Part shown: piece by piece, positions 5,093 through 18,769 of the stretch
How positions within the stretch are numbered: the first letter of the stretch is position 1
Layout of the letters: the number at the start of each line of letters is the position of its first letter
The notes under the pieces: model-generated
What the model was told of the DNA's origin: nothing
Databases searched by the model: none
Seen by the model: only the letters and a program-made list of their open reading frames with translations
Translations under genes and position numbers: made by a program
DNA from: a virus
DNA length: 64,000 nt
Strand: one strand, 5' to 3'
Virus record (IMG/VR): IMGVR_UViG_3300049846_002130
Location: 1-64,000 of that record

Positions 5093-5266
5093 CTAATCTG
5101 GACATACTAATCTACAAAAGCCATTAACTACTCTAAACTCAGAGTAAGTATTAAACATTGAGCTACGAGTATTTAGTACATGAATATATGCCCAATCAAG
5201 TAATGTATTCCACATAATGTTATTGGTTACTACGTGACCATAGTACTTGTTCTTAAAGAATACCAT
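5093..5266 (-). CDS. VCPD-tail small protein 4, 57 aa
   Basis: The start with GGAGAAGAC upstream gives MVFFKNKYYGHVVTNNIMWN and the end is GFCRLVCPD. It is the closest paralogue of the protein at 4217-4390. It is the first gene of the leftward AT-rich run, so its promoter should lie in 5267-5400. Function unknown. Confidence 0.75.
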   Translation of the reverse strand: MVFFKNKYYGHVVTNNIMWNTLLDWAYIHVLNTRSSMFNTYSEFRVVNGFCRLVCPD

Positions 5267-5375
5267 GTCTTCTCCGGGCGAAATCAATACTTTACAAGTA
5301 TTCCAATTATTACGTCTACAACATATTGTAAATTAATATTCTCTATAAGCTAAGTACTAGCCTATATGAGGAGTT

Positions 5376-7723: not shown

Positions 7724-7940
7724 TCTGCACCTCGCTGCTTCTGTGTGGGTTTGGAGGCTTTTACCAATGCTTTACAGACCCCCGTGTTTTTTGCAAAACG
7801 TAGAGGTTTGTTGAGCACCAGTATGGGTTTGGGAGTAGGGAGTGTGGGCTTGAACCACCAACAGGTGTGACTATTTGCATTTTGTCACTTTTGTTGTTAG
7901 CCTGGGTAATGCACTACCCGTTCATGCTCCCCGTGAAGAA

Positions 7941-10839: not shown

Positions 10840-13740
10840 TCAGGTCCGGTTCAGTGACCTTGTCAGTGACGAAAGCCACTGGCTTTCTGCTGACGCCTTG
10901 CGGGTTCTGATGGTGTTGACCACTTCGGAGGTCAACTTGGCCATGCAGTCAGGGCAATCCCAGAGTGGGATTCCTTGATCGTTGGCGTCCTTGATTTCCA
11001 GTTGGTGCTGGCTGCTTTTGGACACAATCCACGTCAGCTTCTGCGTGGGGTCTGGGTCCTTGAGAGCCATGTCGACACATCGTTGGAGTCGTTGCTCCCG
11101 ATGGAGAAACTGACACTCGTAGGTGTGTTCGATTCCCAGAATCTCCATGATGGGAGAGCCTGGGTAGCACACTGCCCGGAATGCATTGTTCAGGTTGGGC
11201 CTGAAGCTTTCGCTTGTCTCAGAGGTCTCGTGCTCCCAGATTTCGACGAGAGCAGTGATGCGCTCGCTTTCCGGAAGCTGAGCAAGGAACAGCTGAAGCT
11301 CTTCTTCGAGCTTCTGCTGTGCCCCAAGTACCTGGTTTGCCCTACGCTCTTCGTTGGCGGAGAGCGATGAGAGCGCATCGTTGTACTTGCCAAGACCACA
11401 CTTGGCTCGAAGGCCTTGTTGGTACTTGGTGTGATTGACAACGATATGTGGTACTACCACGCCCTTTGCTGCCAACACAAGCCTCAACAGTGGGTTGAGG
11501 TCAATGTTGGTCTTGCTCTGGAACTGAGGCTCTTCCTCTTCCCAGAGCTTGAAGCAGTGGCGTGCAGCGATGTGCACGAGGTTCTCATGTTCGCTGACGG
11601 GTGGCAAGAACCACTCATCAACGTTCACTCGTTGACCTCGGCGTCTCCACCACAGAGGGTCCAGGGCCTTCATCTTCCCATCGTCCTGAGCTGCACAGCA
11701 GCCGGCTGCGATGAGTCGACCATCCACCCACTCTTTCAGTCTCTTCATGGGGATCTCTCCCCCTTCGAGCTGATCGGAGGTGTAGCGGATGGTGAAGTGC
11801 CACCCATCTTCACGCTGCTCCCAATTCGTTGGGTCAGCAGCCTTTTCGATGTTGGACCACTCTGGTACTCGCTTCTGACGGTCAATGCACTCCTGAATCG
11901 CGATGCTCAGCGCACGAGCACCGTTCAGGTCACCGACTGCCAGAAGCCGCGACCGCCACACGGTACACCGACCCACTGGGCCACGATGATCGTAGCGCAG
12001 GTACTCCAGGCCCTCTGGAGTATTGGTCATCAACGGACCACCATTCTTGGCAGTCAGTTCCACACCTTTTGGTTCGATGTGGAAGATGTCGTTGTCGTTC
12101 CGGTAGCTGAACAGCTCCAGAATGTCTGGGCTGTCACTGACGCCCAGAATATCTCCGTCATCGTCACCCTGCATCTTGATCGTCAAGTCTGCAGGGTTCA
12201 TGATGATTTGGAATGGAGGCAGCTCATCGTTTACCAGATGATGAGCTTTGGGCTTGATGGTCTTCATGACTACCAGACCCTGAGGCAGAATCATTGGAAA
12301 CCTGAATGCTGCCACCTGCTTGCCGGGTCGCATGCCTGCAACCACACAGTGGCCAGCAGGCACAGTGGCGTCCAGACGAGCAACGTAGCTCCTGAACTTA
12401 CCACCTCCGCCCTGTTCCGTTCTTCCCAGGGTTCTGGCGAGACGGTCCTTGACCGCCTCTGCCACTCTGGGAATGTCCATCGGGGACACTGCGTGGCCCT
12501 CGGAACGAATCACGTTCACGAAGTCCACGATGCCTTTGATGGTGGTGTCACGCCTGGCGATTTGATTCACCAGGCCATCAAGGCCCTTGGCGAACAGTTT
12601 ACCCATGGCCTTGTCGACCATGTTGCGTACGACCTCTGCCGTACGACCGTTCACCTGGATATTCTCCAGCATTTCGAAGCTGCCGGAGATCCGCCGCGGA
12701 CGGTCCCATGCCTGCAGGATGCCGACGTAGCAGCCTCCCACAGCCTTGACCCTGTTGTCGGCCCGACGCTGCTTTGCCTCGGGCTTCCAGCGGCCCTTGA
12801 TTTGCGTCCAGTCGAGTACGATGCCCTCGACCTTGTCGGACGGGAAGATCGTGCCCTTGGCGAATAGCCCACTCTCGGGCTGCAAGAGCCGGAACTGGCA
12901 GGGCACAGCTCCGTACTTGGCTACGAATGCAGCCATCTCAGGACAGGTTGGGTTGTAGATGCCCGACCCGTCTGTTTTCAAGTCCACACCCTCCGCGTCA
13001 CGCAGAGTGGTGAACGTGACATTGGCGTTCTCGATGAAGCCCTCGGGGAGCACCGGGGCATTGAGGCCATGACAGTACGCAGACATGTCGATGGCCTTCG
13101 GGAATGCCTTGAGCAACAACTTGTAGGCTGGGTGGTCCATGTTCCAGCCCAGACGCTCACCGGAGACAGCGATGTGGAGGCTGTTCAGCTCCGCAAGGCC
13201 GCCCTTGAAGGTTTCGCGCCCCTCTTCGTCCTCTCGCTTGTCGATGGTCGACAAGATGTTCATCGCTACGGCAGAGGACTGCTGACCGTGCAGAACCCCG
13301 CTGATGAGAGCAAGGAGCCCAAAGCTCCGCAGCTCTCGATCGTAGCGCCACCGACACCGCTCCTCGTTGAGTCGGTAGAAGGTGTACACTGGCTCACGGA
13401 TGTACGTGAGCCGATTTGCTGTCCGCTTCTCGAAGCGCACCAGGCGCTCTTGAAGCCTCTTGATGTCTTTGGTGGCCAAGGTCTCGTATGCCAAGGTCAC
13501 CAAGTCTTCGGCAAATACTTCGGCCAGCTCACTGAATCCCATGGACGTGAACACATCCACGAGGTCCTCGATCTTGGTCAGGGGCTTCGTTTGCACCCTG
13601 GCCACGTAGTCGCCCAGCATGTCGCCGGGCAACTCCTCCTCCGTCCCCCGAGGCTCGTCGAGAGTGATGGAGTTCAGAAACTCCAGAACCCTCCGCTCCT
13701 CGTTGCGGATCTCGAAGTTCTCAACACTGAGGTTGTTCAT
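10840..13740 (-). CDS. Putative single-subunit DxDGD RNA polymerase, 966 aa
   Basis: Residues 526-530 (in MQGDDDGDILGV) match the DxDGD metal-binding motif of the beta'-type double-psi beta-barrel shared by cellular RNA polymerases, QDE-1-like RdRPs and phage YonO-type enzymes. Upstream, FRFPMILPQGLVV resembles the Arg-x-Pro strand that precedes this motif, and LFAKGT (K295-G296) is placed like the catalytic Lys-Gly of the other barrel. One chain carrying both barrels indicates a single-subunit polymerase. AGGAGGTCC before ATG 13740 fixes the start; a 1014-aa frame upstream has no such site. It lies outside the virion block, so it is probably made after infection. Confidence 0.8.
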   Translation of the reverse strand: MNNLSVENFEIRNEERRVLEFLNSITLDEPRGTEEELPGDMLGDYVARVQTKPLTKIEDLVDVFTSMGFSELAEVFAEDLVTLAYETLATKDIKRLQERLVRFEKRTANRLTYIREPVYTFYRLNEERCRWRYDRELRSFGLLALISGVLHGQQSSAVAMNILSTIDKREDEEGRETFKGGLAELNSLHIAVSGERLGWNMDHPAYKLLLKAFPKAIDMSAYCHGLNAPVLPEGFIENANVTFTTLRDAEGVDLKTDGSGIYNPTCPEMAAFVAKYGAVPCQFRLLQPESGLFAKGTIFPSDKVEGIVLDWTQIKGRWKPEAKQRRADNRVKAVGGCYVGILQAWDRPRRISGSFEMLENIQVNGRTAEVVRNMVDKAMGKLFAKGLDGLVNQIARRDTTIKGIVDFVNVIRSEGHAVSPMDIPRVAEAVKDRLARTLGRTEQGGGGKFRSYVARLDATVPAGHCVVAGMRPGKQVAAFRFPMILPQGLVVMKTIKPKAHHLVNDELPPFQIIMNPADLTIKMQGDDDGDILGVSDSPDILELFSYRNDNDIFHIEPKGVELTAKNGGPLMTNTPEGLEYLRYDHRGPVGRCTVWRSRLLAVGDLNGARALSIAIQECIDRQKRVPEWSNIEKAADPTNWEQREDGWHFTIRYTSDQLEGGEIPMKRLKEWVDGRLIAAGCCAAQDDGKMKALDPLWWRRRGQRVNVDEWFLPPVSEHENLVHIAARHCFKLWEEEEPQFQSKTNIDLNPLLRLVLAAKGVVVPHIVVNHTKYQQGLRAKCGLGKYNDALSSLSANEERRANQVLGAQQKLEEELQLFLAQLPESERITALVEIWEHETSETSESFRPNLNNAFRAVCYPGSPIMEILGIEHTYECQFLHREQRLQRCVDMALKDPDPTQKLTWIVSKSSQHQLEIKDANDQGIPLWDCPDCMAKLTSEVVNTIRTRKASAESQWLSSLTRSLNRT

Positions 13741-13762
13741 GGACCTCCTAAAGCTTAGCATT

Positions 13763-13778
13763 GGCTGCGTCAGCAGCC
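13763..13778 (-). promoter_or_regulatory. Leader hairpin of the polymerase gene
   Basis: GGCTGC and GCAGCC around GTCA form a hairpin right after a TTTTTTATGG motif and before the AGGAGG of the polymerase gene. The same 16 bases occur at 9143-9158. Confidence 0.5.
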
Positions 13779-13787
13779 ATAAAAAAG

Positions 13788-13810
13788 GGAAGGCCACAAT
13801 AGGGCCTTCC
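13788..13810 (-). terminator. Terminator of pentapeptide gene C
   Basis: On the leftward strand GGAAGGCC..GGCCTTCC is followed by CTTTTTTATGG. The T-run merges into the TTATGG motif that starts the next unit. Confidence 0.75.
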
Positions 13811-13859
13811 GGATTCAAGACAGAACCTTGATGGTCTATCCTATCACTAACTTTCTTTC

Positions 13860-14252
13860 TTAGCCGTCGATGCCGATGGCCCACCGGAGCTTAGCCCCCT
13901 GGAGGTAAGCCCCACGGAGGTTGGCCCCCTGGAGATTGGCCCCCCAAAGGTCAGCCTCCCGAAGGTCAGCCCACCGGAGGTCAGCCCCCTGGAGGTCAGC
14001 CCCCTGGAGGTCAGCCTCCTGGAGGTAAACCCACTGGAGGTCAGCCCCCCAGAGGTCAGCCTCCCGGAGGTTAGCCCCCCGGAGGTCAGCCCACTGGAGG
14101 TCAGCCCCCCGGAGGTCAGCCCGCCGGAGGTCAGCCCTCTGGGGCACGACACTCTCTTCAACAGCATGGGCTTCGAAGCCCTGGCTTCGAAGCCAAGCTT
14201 GGTGAGGCCCGTACCAAGGGAAGCGGGCCATGAGCTCAGTGTGGTTGGTCAT
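13860..14252 (-). CDS. Pentapeptide-repeat protein C, 130 aa
   Basis: GGAGGCAAG before ATG 14252 gives MTNHTELMARFPWYGPHQAW, almost identical at the N-terminus to paralogue A. Residues from about 42 onward are roughly 17 pentapeptides (ADLRG, ADLQW, ANLRE), ending KLRWAIGIDG. Unlike A and B it is a single-gene unit with its own terminators, between the polymerase gene and small genes. Same beta-helix family; target unknown. Confidence 0.9.
   Translation of the reverse strand: MTNHTELMARFPWYGPHQAWLRSQGFEAHAVEESVVPQRADLRRADLRGADLQWADLRGANLREADLWGADLQWVYLQEADLQGADLQGADLRWADLREADLWGANLQGANLRGAYLQGAKLRWAIGIDG
14169..14194 (-). repeat. TTCGAA double-palindrome element, copy 3
   Basis: GGCTTCGAAGCC twice, separated by CT, inside pentapeptide protein C at the same place as copies 1 and 2. 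Confidence 0.75.
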
Positions 14253-15072: not shown

Positions 15073-15124
15073 CCTTGTTGGTCACCATGACCATAAAAGA
15101 AGGGGTAGTTTATCCACATACCCC
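15073..15124 (-). terminator. Terminator plus CTTTTATGG leader cassette
   Basis: Leftward GGGGTA..TACCCC (15102-15124), then TTCTTTTATGG, then the leader hairpin GGTCA-TGG-TGACC, then the Shine-Dalgarno of the 14685-15065 gene. Confidence 0.65.
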
Positions 15125-16905: not shown

Positions 16906-16963
16906 AATGCCTTAGGGAAGTTATCTAAGGCCATAAAAGAAAGGGGTAGTTATACTCCACCCC
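16906..16963 (-). terminator. Terminator plus CTTTTATGG leader cassette
   Basis: Leftward GGGGT..ACCCC, then CTTTCTTTTATGG and the leader hairpin GCCTTAG-loop-CTAAGGC. Confidence 0.65.
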
Positions 16964-16979
16964 CAGGAGTCAGACTTGA

Positions 16980-17435
16980 CTAGCTTTCGAGGCTAGCCAA
17001 GTCTCCCTGCCAGAAGAACAAGCTGGCGAGCCCGTCCTCCTCCACCTCCCGCTCGTTGTTCAGCTCATCGCAGAGCTGGTCGAGTGCGAGGGTTTCCTCG
17101 ACGATCTGGGCTGCCTTATCCATCTCGGACCAGAAGACCACCATGGCCCCATGGAGAGCGTTGATGCTAAACGCATGCTCCTCGCACACCTCCACTTCGA
17201 AGGCCGGGTCAATCTGGTCGAACCAGATCTCGGTCATGAGTTCCTCGCCCCAGAACACCATGTCCTCGGGGATCTCGAATACGTGGACCAGGTCAGCCTG
17301 CTCCTCCTCGTGGTACACGATCTGGACGCTCTCGGCACAGACCGGGTGGAGAGCGATGATGTCCTCGAAGGTCACGATGGCCCCGACGACGATGACGACG
17401 AGGAGGAACAACGACACCAGGGTGATGGCGAGCAT
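16980..17435 (-). CDS. Membrane-anchored acidic protein, 151 aa
   Basis: TTGGAGCTAAC before the ATG gives MLAITLVSLFLLVVIVVGAI, a single N-terminal membrane helix. The rest is strongly acidic and alpha/beta (YHEEEQADLVHVFEIPEDMV), ending FFWQGDLASLES. The upstream leader is the roughly 700-nt hairpin array, so either this gene has an exceptional 5' UTR or the array is a separate RNA. Function unknown. Confidence 0.65.
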   Translation of the reverse strand: MLAITLVSLFLLVVIVVGAIVTFEDIIALHPVCAESVQIVYHEEEQADLVHVFEIPEDMVFWGEELMTEIWFDQIDPAFEVEVCEEHAFSINALHGAMVVFWSEMDKAAQIVEETLALDQLCDELNNEREVEEDGLASLFFWQGDLASLES

Positions 17436-17445
17436 GTTAGCTCCA

Positions 17446-18149
17446 AGCCTACTAGGTGTAGGCTGTTGTTGGTTGGTAGACTTAGAAACTAAGTCTGGTA
17501 GGTGGACTGGGACCACCACGGCCTAAGGTTCTGTGATTGTCCTTTTAGACCTTAAGGTCTGCCCATGGATATCGGGTTTGGCTAGTGGGTTGGTCTTACT
17601 GTCATGCCACGAGTATAGCCAGACTCGTTTGCACCAGATCCAGGTGCTTGGTTGACTTACTCAGTAAGTCAGAGGGTGTGTGTTATCCGCGTACACCAAG
17701 CGGGATGGTATGTTGTACTACAAGCACATGCTGGTAGTAGTGTAGGTCCCCACCTAGGTACCGTTCCCTATAGGGTGATGTCCCCTATGGTAGGTAGTAC
17801 CATGCCTAGGCTACTTGTCGTAGTGCCAACGCTAGGTGCCCCTAGAAGTCCTATGTCTCTTTACCGCATAGGAGATCGGTTGTTTCCATGGCGCATATAC
17901 CTAGTACGTATAGTGTACCCATCGTGGGCACCTATACGGGCTACTAGGTAGGCTACCTGGGGGATGTACCCCTTGCCTTCGTGTGGTGGACTCCACACTA
18001 GTATGCTGCCCAGCATACACCCGTATACACCCGCAGGCGTATACTTCTGCTACACGGTTAATACTTGCTTAAGCAAGTATTAACCTACTACATATCCAGT
18101 GATTGCTCTTCCCAGGTATGTAGGGACATGGTCATATCGCTATGACCAT
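17446..18149 (-). ncRNA. Non-coding array of about 22 consecutive hairpins
   Basis: About 700 bp carry no convincing ORF but almost continuous local inverted repeats, each a different sequence. Examples are 17446-17464 (AGCCTAC/GTAGGCT), 17478-17496 (AGACTTAG/CTAAGTCT), 17653-17671 (TGACTTAC/GTAAGTCA), 17716-17739, 17832-17845, 17849-17873, 17907-17938, 17981-17998 (GTGTGG/CCACAC), 18001-18018 (GTATGCTG/CAGCATAC), 18023-18044, 18056-18085 and 18128-18149. On the leftward strand it begins directly at a CTTTTATGG motif, like the coding units around it. A long structured RNA, a replication origin or a packaging site are all possible. Confidence 0.7.
18056..18085. repeat. 30-bp perfect palindrome
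   Basis: GGTTAATACTTGCTT is followed directly by its exact reverse complement, with no spacer. It is the longest perfect palindrome noticed in the window and lies within the hairpin array. Confidence 0.85.
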
Positions 18150-18158
18150 AAAAGAAAA

Positions 18159-18174
18159 GGGGGCCGAAGCCCCG
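18159..18174 (-). terminator. Terminator before the hairpin array
   Basis: Leftward GGGGC-TTCG-GCCCC, then CCTTTTCTTTTATGG. The ATGG is the start of the 9-bp hairpin at 18128-18149. Confidence 0.75.
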
Positions 18175-18178
18175 ATCA

Positions 18179-18277
18179 TCAGGCGATGCGCCCGATGATC
18201 AACCCAATACCGAATCCCACCATCGTCATGGCAATGATGGCAATGCAAGAAGCACACATAAGGATGATGATGCCCAT
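18179..18277 (-). CDS. Tiny hydrophobic protein, 32 aa
   Basis: CGGAGGTTAAC precedes ATG 18277. The product begins MGIIILMCASCIAIIAMTMV and continues GFGIGLIIGRIA: one or two membrane passes. It has a terminator on each side, and the Shine-Dalgarno follows CTTTTACGG directly without a leader hairpin. Confidence 0.5.
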   Translation of the reverse strand: MGIIILMCASCIAIIAMTMVGFGIGLIIGRIA

Positions 18278-18488: not shown

Positions 18489-18769
18489 GGTACCTCCAAG
18501 ACATGTAGATGCTGAATGCATCATACAGAGGTCATAAAAAGAAAGAATAAAATAAAAAGAGGGGTCAATACTTTAGGCCGGTGGGCTCCGAACTCCGGAT
18601 TGGATAACCATGATATATCTACCTGGTCCACAAAATTATATATATAATATATTACATAATCCATAGCCACATATTGCTTATATCTATACCAACTACACCG
18701 ATGCTCCAGCTTAATCTGCACTATCTTCTACTTGCACTTGCACTATGTTATACTTTTTACGGAGACTGC
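18489..18769. promoter_or_regulatory. Divergent intergenic region between left and right arms
   Basis: About 280 bp separate the last leftward gene from the first rightward one. It contains the CTTTTTATGA motif on the left strand and an AT-rich tract around 18640-18660 (ATATATATAATATATT). Just before the first rightward gene TATACT lies 17 bp after a weak TTCTAC. Both arms should be started here, but no promoter can be fixed by eye. Confidence 0.4.

Follow-up and report, generated by a model that had tools for sequence, protein, structure and literature searches.

A 700-nt hairpin array in a large phage genome as a probable gene for a large structured RNA

Results

Gene surroundings of the hairpin array

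The stretch of DNA analysed here, called the window, comprises 64,000 nucleotides of a 183,528-bp virus record that encodes a terminase (IMG/VR: IMGVR_UViG_3300049846_002130, positions 1 to 64,000). The genes to the right of about 18.6 kb run rightward and include 19032, 23078, the terminase and the gene of a 994-aa protein with an SNase domain; the GC-skew minimum is located there. To the left of this point lies a block of short leftward units, the third of which contains an array of hairpins. Both the GC-skew minimum and the divergent junction are found no more than about 1 kb from the array, and the terminase 6 kb from it. The only tRNA of the window is found at 7940, 9.4 kb from the array. 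The features of the locus are as follows.

18575-18596, leftward strand: conserved element at the head of the block, present in a single copy; contains GAGCCCACCGGCCT
18179-18277, leftward strand: preceding single-gene unit, encoding a 32-aa membrane peptide (MGIIILMCASC...)
18160-18173, leftward strand: terminator of the preceding unit, GGGGCTTCGGCCCC and a T tract; the array begins directly after it
17446-18150, leftward strand: hairpin array, a putative structured RNA of about 700 nt with about 20 local hairpins (from fold, stem counts and syntenic arrays in relatives)
18127-18150, leftward strand: first hairpin of the array unit, immediately following the CTTTTATGG junction; stem of 10 bp and a GNRA-type loop, GCGA
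18056-18085, leftward strand: perfect 30-nt palindrome with 15-bp arms
17890-17957, leftward strand: compound hairpin of 28 pairs, the longest in the array (from the fold)
17485-17584, leftward strand: conserved 3' domain with GGACAAU motif and helices, homologous by covariance model R1 to the array 3' ends of L096, L102, L095 and L105
17446-17464, leftward strand: last hairpin of the array, directly 5' of the ribosome-binding site of the next gene
16980-17435, leftward strand: gene in the unit of the array, 151 aa, acidic, with an N-terminal membrane segment; no relatives found
16942-16964, leftward strand: terminator closing the unit of array and gene

Between 14.5 and 18.9 kb the leftward strand is organised in single-gene units consisting of a terminator, a C/T-rich tract ending in TTTTATGG, a 5' hairpin, a ribosome-binding site and a short gene. 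Terminator-like sites are enriched in this region (10 versus 3.0 expected), the strongest ones being on the leftward strand, and matches to sigma-70-type promoters in the leftward block are no commoner than in shuffles. The junction CTTTTATGG at 18147 recurs at 15092, 15415, 16580 and 16932, in agreement with a first-pass annotation of the window, according to which the array shares its junction with the single-gene units. At its other end the array leads into the ribosome-binding site of gene 17435-16980 with no terminator in between, so that the hairpins would form the initial 700 nt of a transcription unit that extends beyond them.

The element at 18575-18596 is composed, on the leftward strand, of an A-rich tract, ACCAGGT, GAGCCCACC and then G/C and T. 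It occupies the same place in 24 relatives and has one exact copy in the 183-kb genome. Its interpretation as an RNA hairpin was dropped, as no consensus fold was obtained; the element is a candidate promoter, origin or packaging site.

The first 30,000 nt of the window are of mosaic composition, with a GC content of about 0.51-0.59 in the leftward block (6-18 kb) and about 0.37-0.49 elsewhere after the first kilobase. The block also encodes a leftward protein of 1014 aa (10840-13884), which is 23-28% conserved in relatives and contains GDDDGD, a motif that recalls two-barrel RNA polymerases. Assignment as an RNA polymerase was abandoned, since Pfam, PHROG and PDB gave no support and the AlphaFold prediction, with a mean pLDDT of 39, could not be used.

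Inverted repeats and folding of the array

A count of non-overlapping perfect stems (at least 6 bp, loop of at most 15) revealed 14 stems between 17446 and 18149, compared with 3.0 +/- 1.6 (maximum 8) in 200 dinucleotide shuffles. Stems cover 30% of the array, whereas the mean of the window is 7.5%, and this is the highest value among all 700-bp segments of the 64 kb. The first-pass annotation had described near-continuous inverted repeats, not copied from one another and reflecting repeated selection for local pairing, and these numbers bear it out. Instead of the roughly 22 hairpins counted there, the local fold of the leftward strand contains 20; the palindrome with 15-bp arms is present as described, and so is the frequent CTAG, which occurs 9 times in the 704 bp of the array and 260 times in 64 kb, an approximately threefold enrichment.

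The folding energy of the array is below that of shuffled sequence on both strands (z of -6.8 leftward and -5.3 rightward). The raw energy is lower on the rightward strand (-291 versus -277 leftward). Single-strand folding of the window thus gives no decision between the strands, and the strand assignment rests on the relatives described below. Leftward transcription from the shared junction, as proposed earlier, remains probable on this basis, with the strand taken from the relatives and not from the fold of the window.

The longest open reading frame within the array encodes 99 aa (17652-17951, rightward, TTG start) and none spans it. The inside reading frames matched nothing in PHROG, nor anything among phages by tblastn; a protein-coding interpretation was therefore dropped, consistent with the earlier claim that no supportable reading frame is present. 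Rfam covariance models, those for ROOL, GOLLD and OLE included, gave nothing relevant for the array at the gathering score or at E values up to 5, which fits the statement that it belongs to no recognised family. A blastn search with the array among 50,697 phage records revealed no match.

Syntenic arrays in related phages

About 60 related contigs were retrieved from IMG/VR by means of the terminase and the 19032 protein. Their terminases are mostly 43-52% identical to that of the window and the gene order is the same. Upstream of the 19032 gene most of these relatives have long stretches on the leftward strand with many hairpins and few ORFs. In many of them a hairpin array 600-1400 nt long, likewise poor in ORFs, precedes the 19032-20094-23078-terminase cluster within the same leftward block (L096, L102, L068, L072, L099/L006, L098/L055, L103, L106, L105, L057, L095 and others). 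Comparison of the window array with these arrays by blastn and nhmmer detected no nucleotide similarity, and a covariance model was needed. A 300-nt 'array' in L044/L090 was discarded, as a 59-aa reading frame with a Shine-Dalgarno sequence covers most of it. L066 11219-11737 (about 175.2-175.7 kb of the record) is another gap rich in hairpins, about 500 bp long and free of ORFs, in the same genome. The search for a host found one MAG contig only.

The array is located 5' of a gene in L096, L102, L105, L098, L072, L068 and the window. An N-terminal membrane segment is predicted in 7 of 10 genes behind arrays and in 27% of 165 leftward ORFs, an excess that is only suggestive because it was counted once the pattern had been noticed. 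The proteins encoded downstream of the arrays are not recognisably homologous to one another.

This arrangement raises the question of a giant cis-acting 5' leader, whose hairpins would serve only to control the stability, translation or transcription read-through of gene 17435-16980. As would be expected of a leader, the array in the window, L096, L102, L105 and L098 passes directly into a ribosome-binding site followed by an ATG, and in most relatives no terminator separates array and gene; the only leftward T-tract terminators in the window flank array and gene together, and a 5' hairpin also begins other units of the block. In L006/L099, however, the array is located between the junction and a terminator of its own and has no ORF of at least 25 aa with an ATG behind a Shine-Dalgarno sequence, so that it stands alone there. 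Moreover, usual leaders are far shorter than 700-1400 nt, and the downstream proteins lack recognisable homology although the 3' domain of the RNA is homologous (see below). We consider a cis-acting leader possible but rather unlikely.

Leftward transcripts of L077, L079 and L092 fold far below shuffled sequence, in their coding parts too (z down to -12.5), as though RNA structure were selected over the entire block. As the leftward mRNAs of these phages are unusually structured throughout, the hairpin density of the array may in part reflect the block in general. Taken to its end, this would make the array a by-product: the block would select structured, RNase-resistant transcripts generally, and the array would be decayed or spacer sequence with no function of its own. 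The strongly negative fold z of coding leftward units agrees with such a scenario, but the array of L103/L106 is conserved as much as or more than the neighbouring genes, and the 3' motifs of arrays are conserved over distant phages. We therefore give very little credence to the by-product explanation.

Conservation of RNA structure on the leftward strand

The 19 arrays compared contain 127 hairpins with a four-base loop closed by 4 bp. GNRA and UUCG tetraloops were found 29 times on the leftward and 2 times on the rightward strand; terminators, in which UUCG is common as well, are part of some of the stretches. The leftward fold z is stronger than the rightward one in 17 of the 19. The closest pair of arrays, L103 and L106, shows 78-91% nucleotide identity in 100-nt blocks, compared with 44-86% in the flanking blocks. 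In the consensus fold of this pair none of the 134 base pairs is lost, and the changes number 6 two-sided and 13 one-sided; by strand, the consensus reaches -149 kcal/mol leftward versus -132 kcal/mol rightward, with 6 versus 3 two-sided changes. The consensus has long-range helices, so that the RNA would be more than a string of independent hairpins. Folding two sequences together inherently favours compatible pairs, so that independent evidence has to come from the homology of the 3' domain.

The same observations bear on a role of the hairpins at the DNA level, as replication origin, packaging site or antirestriction cruciforms. The position of the array near the GC-skew minimum, the divergent junction and the terminase, its perfect palindromes and the CTAG enrichment would suit such a role. 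Tetraloops with a 29 to 2 strand preference and substitutions that preserve G.U pairs would, in contrast, be meaningless in double-stranded DNA, and the single-copy element at 18575-18596 is a better candidate for a DNA site. The replication origin or packaging site suggested by the first-pass annotation is thus not supported as the role of the hairpins, and a DNA-level element appears highly improbable.

The conserved 3' domain

The arrays of L096 and L102 have about 90 nt in common at their 3' ends, and L095 shares part of this stretch. In the alignment of the three sequences 95% of the pair cells are standard pairs (at most 49% when slid), with two-sided changes at 7 of 22 pairs of a structure that was named after the alignment had been read. 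A covariance model (R1) built from these three sequences, without the window, was searched over 651 kb. Its best outside match is the 3' end of the window array (17485-17584, leftward), with a modest score of 13.9 bits and an E value of 0.34; with the search restricted to the locus the E value is 0.00072. The next match (13.2 bits, E value 0.53) lies in L104/L105 at 5159-5291, before the gene that follows the array. The motif GUGGGGUGAGAUGCCCACAU is almost unchanged in L105, whereas the window keeps GGACAAU and one helix but not the GUGAGA loop. A second covariance model (R2) found no further members.

In the five-sequence alignment of window, L096, L102, L095 and L105, which was fitted to the structure, two-sided changes occur at 12 of 22 pairs. 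The domain is conserved in all five on the leftward strand before the next gene. Sequence comparison of the 5' 600 nt of the window array gave no match, and only the 3' domain is homologous. Covariation is seen both in this domain and in the L103/L106 pair, with 2 to 5 sequences per alignment and correspondingly limited statistical power. Comparison across the relatives shows, at the level of sequence, selection for RNA structure on the leftward strand and homology of the 3' domain of the window to the array RNAs of the relatives.

A repeated module with an AAGGA loop

A hairpin module with a conserved UGNAAGGA-type loop (R3) is repeated within the arrays of L103 (44 and 98), L106 (148 and 204) and L105 (about 5376 and about 5614) and is found once in L081 (191), always on the leftward strand. 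The module shows 5 two-sided changes, and the copies in L105 and L081 lie inside arrays as well. AAGGA occurs 8 times in loops, compared with 1.5 expected. In the window R3 had no credible match, and the window array has no AAGGA-loop hairpin.

The UGNAAGGA-loop module is a possible binding site for a protein or for the anti-Shine-Dalgarno sequence. The array RNA could accordingly be imagined as a sponge or decoy whose loops titrate a host RNA-binding protein or nuclease, in the manner of CsrB/RsmZ, or the ribosomal anti-Shine-Dalgarno. A decoy or antirestriction RNA was likewise listed as a possible role in the first-pass annotation. The enrichment of AAGGA in loops and the repetition of the module in three relatives fit this idea, but the absence of the module from the window and most other arrays means that it cannot be the general function. 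We retain a CsrA sponge for the subset with the module only; as an explanation of the array it is improbable.

Discussion

We propose that the array is probably the gene for a large structured RNA that forms the leftward 5' 700 nt of a short unit encoding a membrane-anchored protein and that probably acts in trans. The array would be transcribed leftward together with the acidic membrane-anchored protein 17435-16980, and the RNA would fold into a string of hairpins (closed by long-range helices in relatives), conserved in its 3' domain and fast-changing in its 5' part. It would most likely work in trans, as a scaffold of RNA or RNP in early or middle infection, and may be tied to the membrane through the co-transcribed protein. 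The ability of the array to occur on its own, and its conservation as RNA next to unrelated downstream proteins, make action in trans likelier than a cis leader. What is said here of the transcription of the array RNA, its timing, its action in trans and its protein partner is inferred.

A more speculative extension of the proposed RNA gene, which we regard as unlikely, is a new giant RNA of 700-1400 nt in an uncultured clade of large phages, a quickly evolving hairpin string whose 3' domain is conserved and that assembles with the co-transcribed membrane protein into an RNA-only or membrane-anchored particle early in infection.

To our knowledge, very few RNAs of this size and degree of structure exist outside ribosomes and introns, and no function is known for those of phages, GOLLD and ROOL. 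If real, the family would be a further one, unrelated to these two and kept by many related phages in one place, where it is linked to a gene for a membrane protein or in some cases stands by itself; large structured RNA would then be a recurrent phage tool. The sequences, the covariance model and the natural variants provide material for testing what large phage RNAs do.

Comparison with known large RNAs

CsrB and RsmZ sponge RNAs are strings of hairpins with GGA-type loops. The AAGGA loop repeated in the arrays of some relatives resembles them; the many ANGGA-type loops along such RNAs are, however, not seen in the window array, and among the arrays AAGGA-loop hairpins are confined to L103, L106, L105 and L081.

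ICP1, a large lytic phage without tRNAs, has a gap of about 1 kb without ORFs, and an ORF-less RNA of about 800 nt is its most abundant transcript (PMC7567579). Compared by description, the array is likewise an ORF-less stretch of similar size in a large phage, but the gap of ICP1 adjoins the lysis cluster, whereas the array is found among short leftward genes, close to the head of their block.

OLE RNA is about 600 nt long and is genetically and functionally paired with the membrane protein OapA (PMC10898510, PMC9723947). OLE is found in bacterial chromosomes, the array has no match to it in Rfam, and the protein encoded beside the array is small and has a single membrane segment; the apparent coupling of arrays to a gene for a membrane protein (7 of 10 versus 27%, the downstream proteins being mutually unrelated) is reminiscent of the OLE/OapA pair.

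ROOL is a phage-borne RNA of about 600-660 nt with many helices and unknown function, and GOLLD is a large (often >800 nt), ornate RNA encoded by phages and prophages, whose 3' region is conserved and whose 5' region is less so (PMC12286853). The array differs from both in having no Rfam match; its genomic setting is not that of ROOL, its hairpins are mostly local, unlike GOLLD, and it is not at a tRNA island, where GOLLD is frequently found. The earlier suggestion of a large ornate RNA of the ROOL/GOLLD kind thus holds for style and not for membership. With ROOL the array shares a phage-borne location, similar size and many helices, and with GOLLD a large, phage-encoded RNA with a conserved 3' part and a variable 5' part. 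The best reading of the sequences is therefore a new family of large phage RNA that resembles GOLLD and ROOL in size and style.
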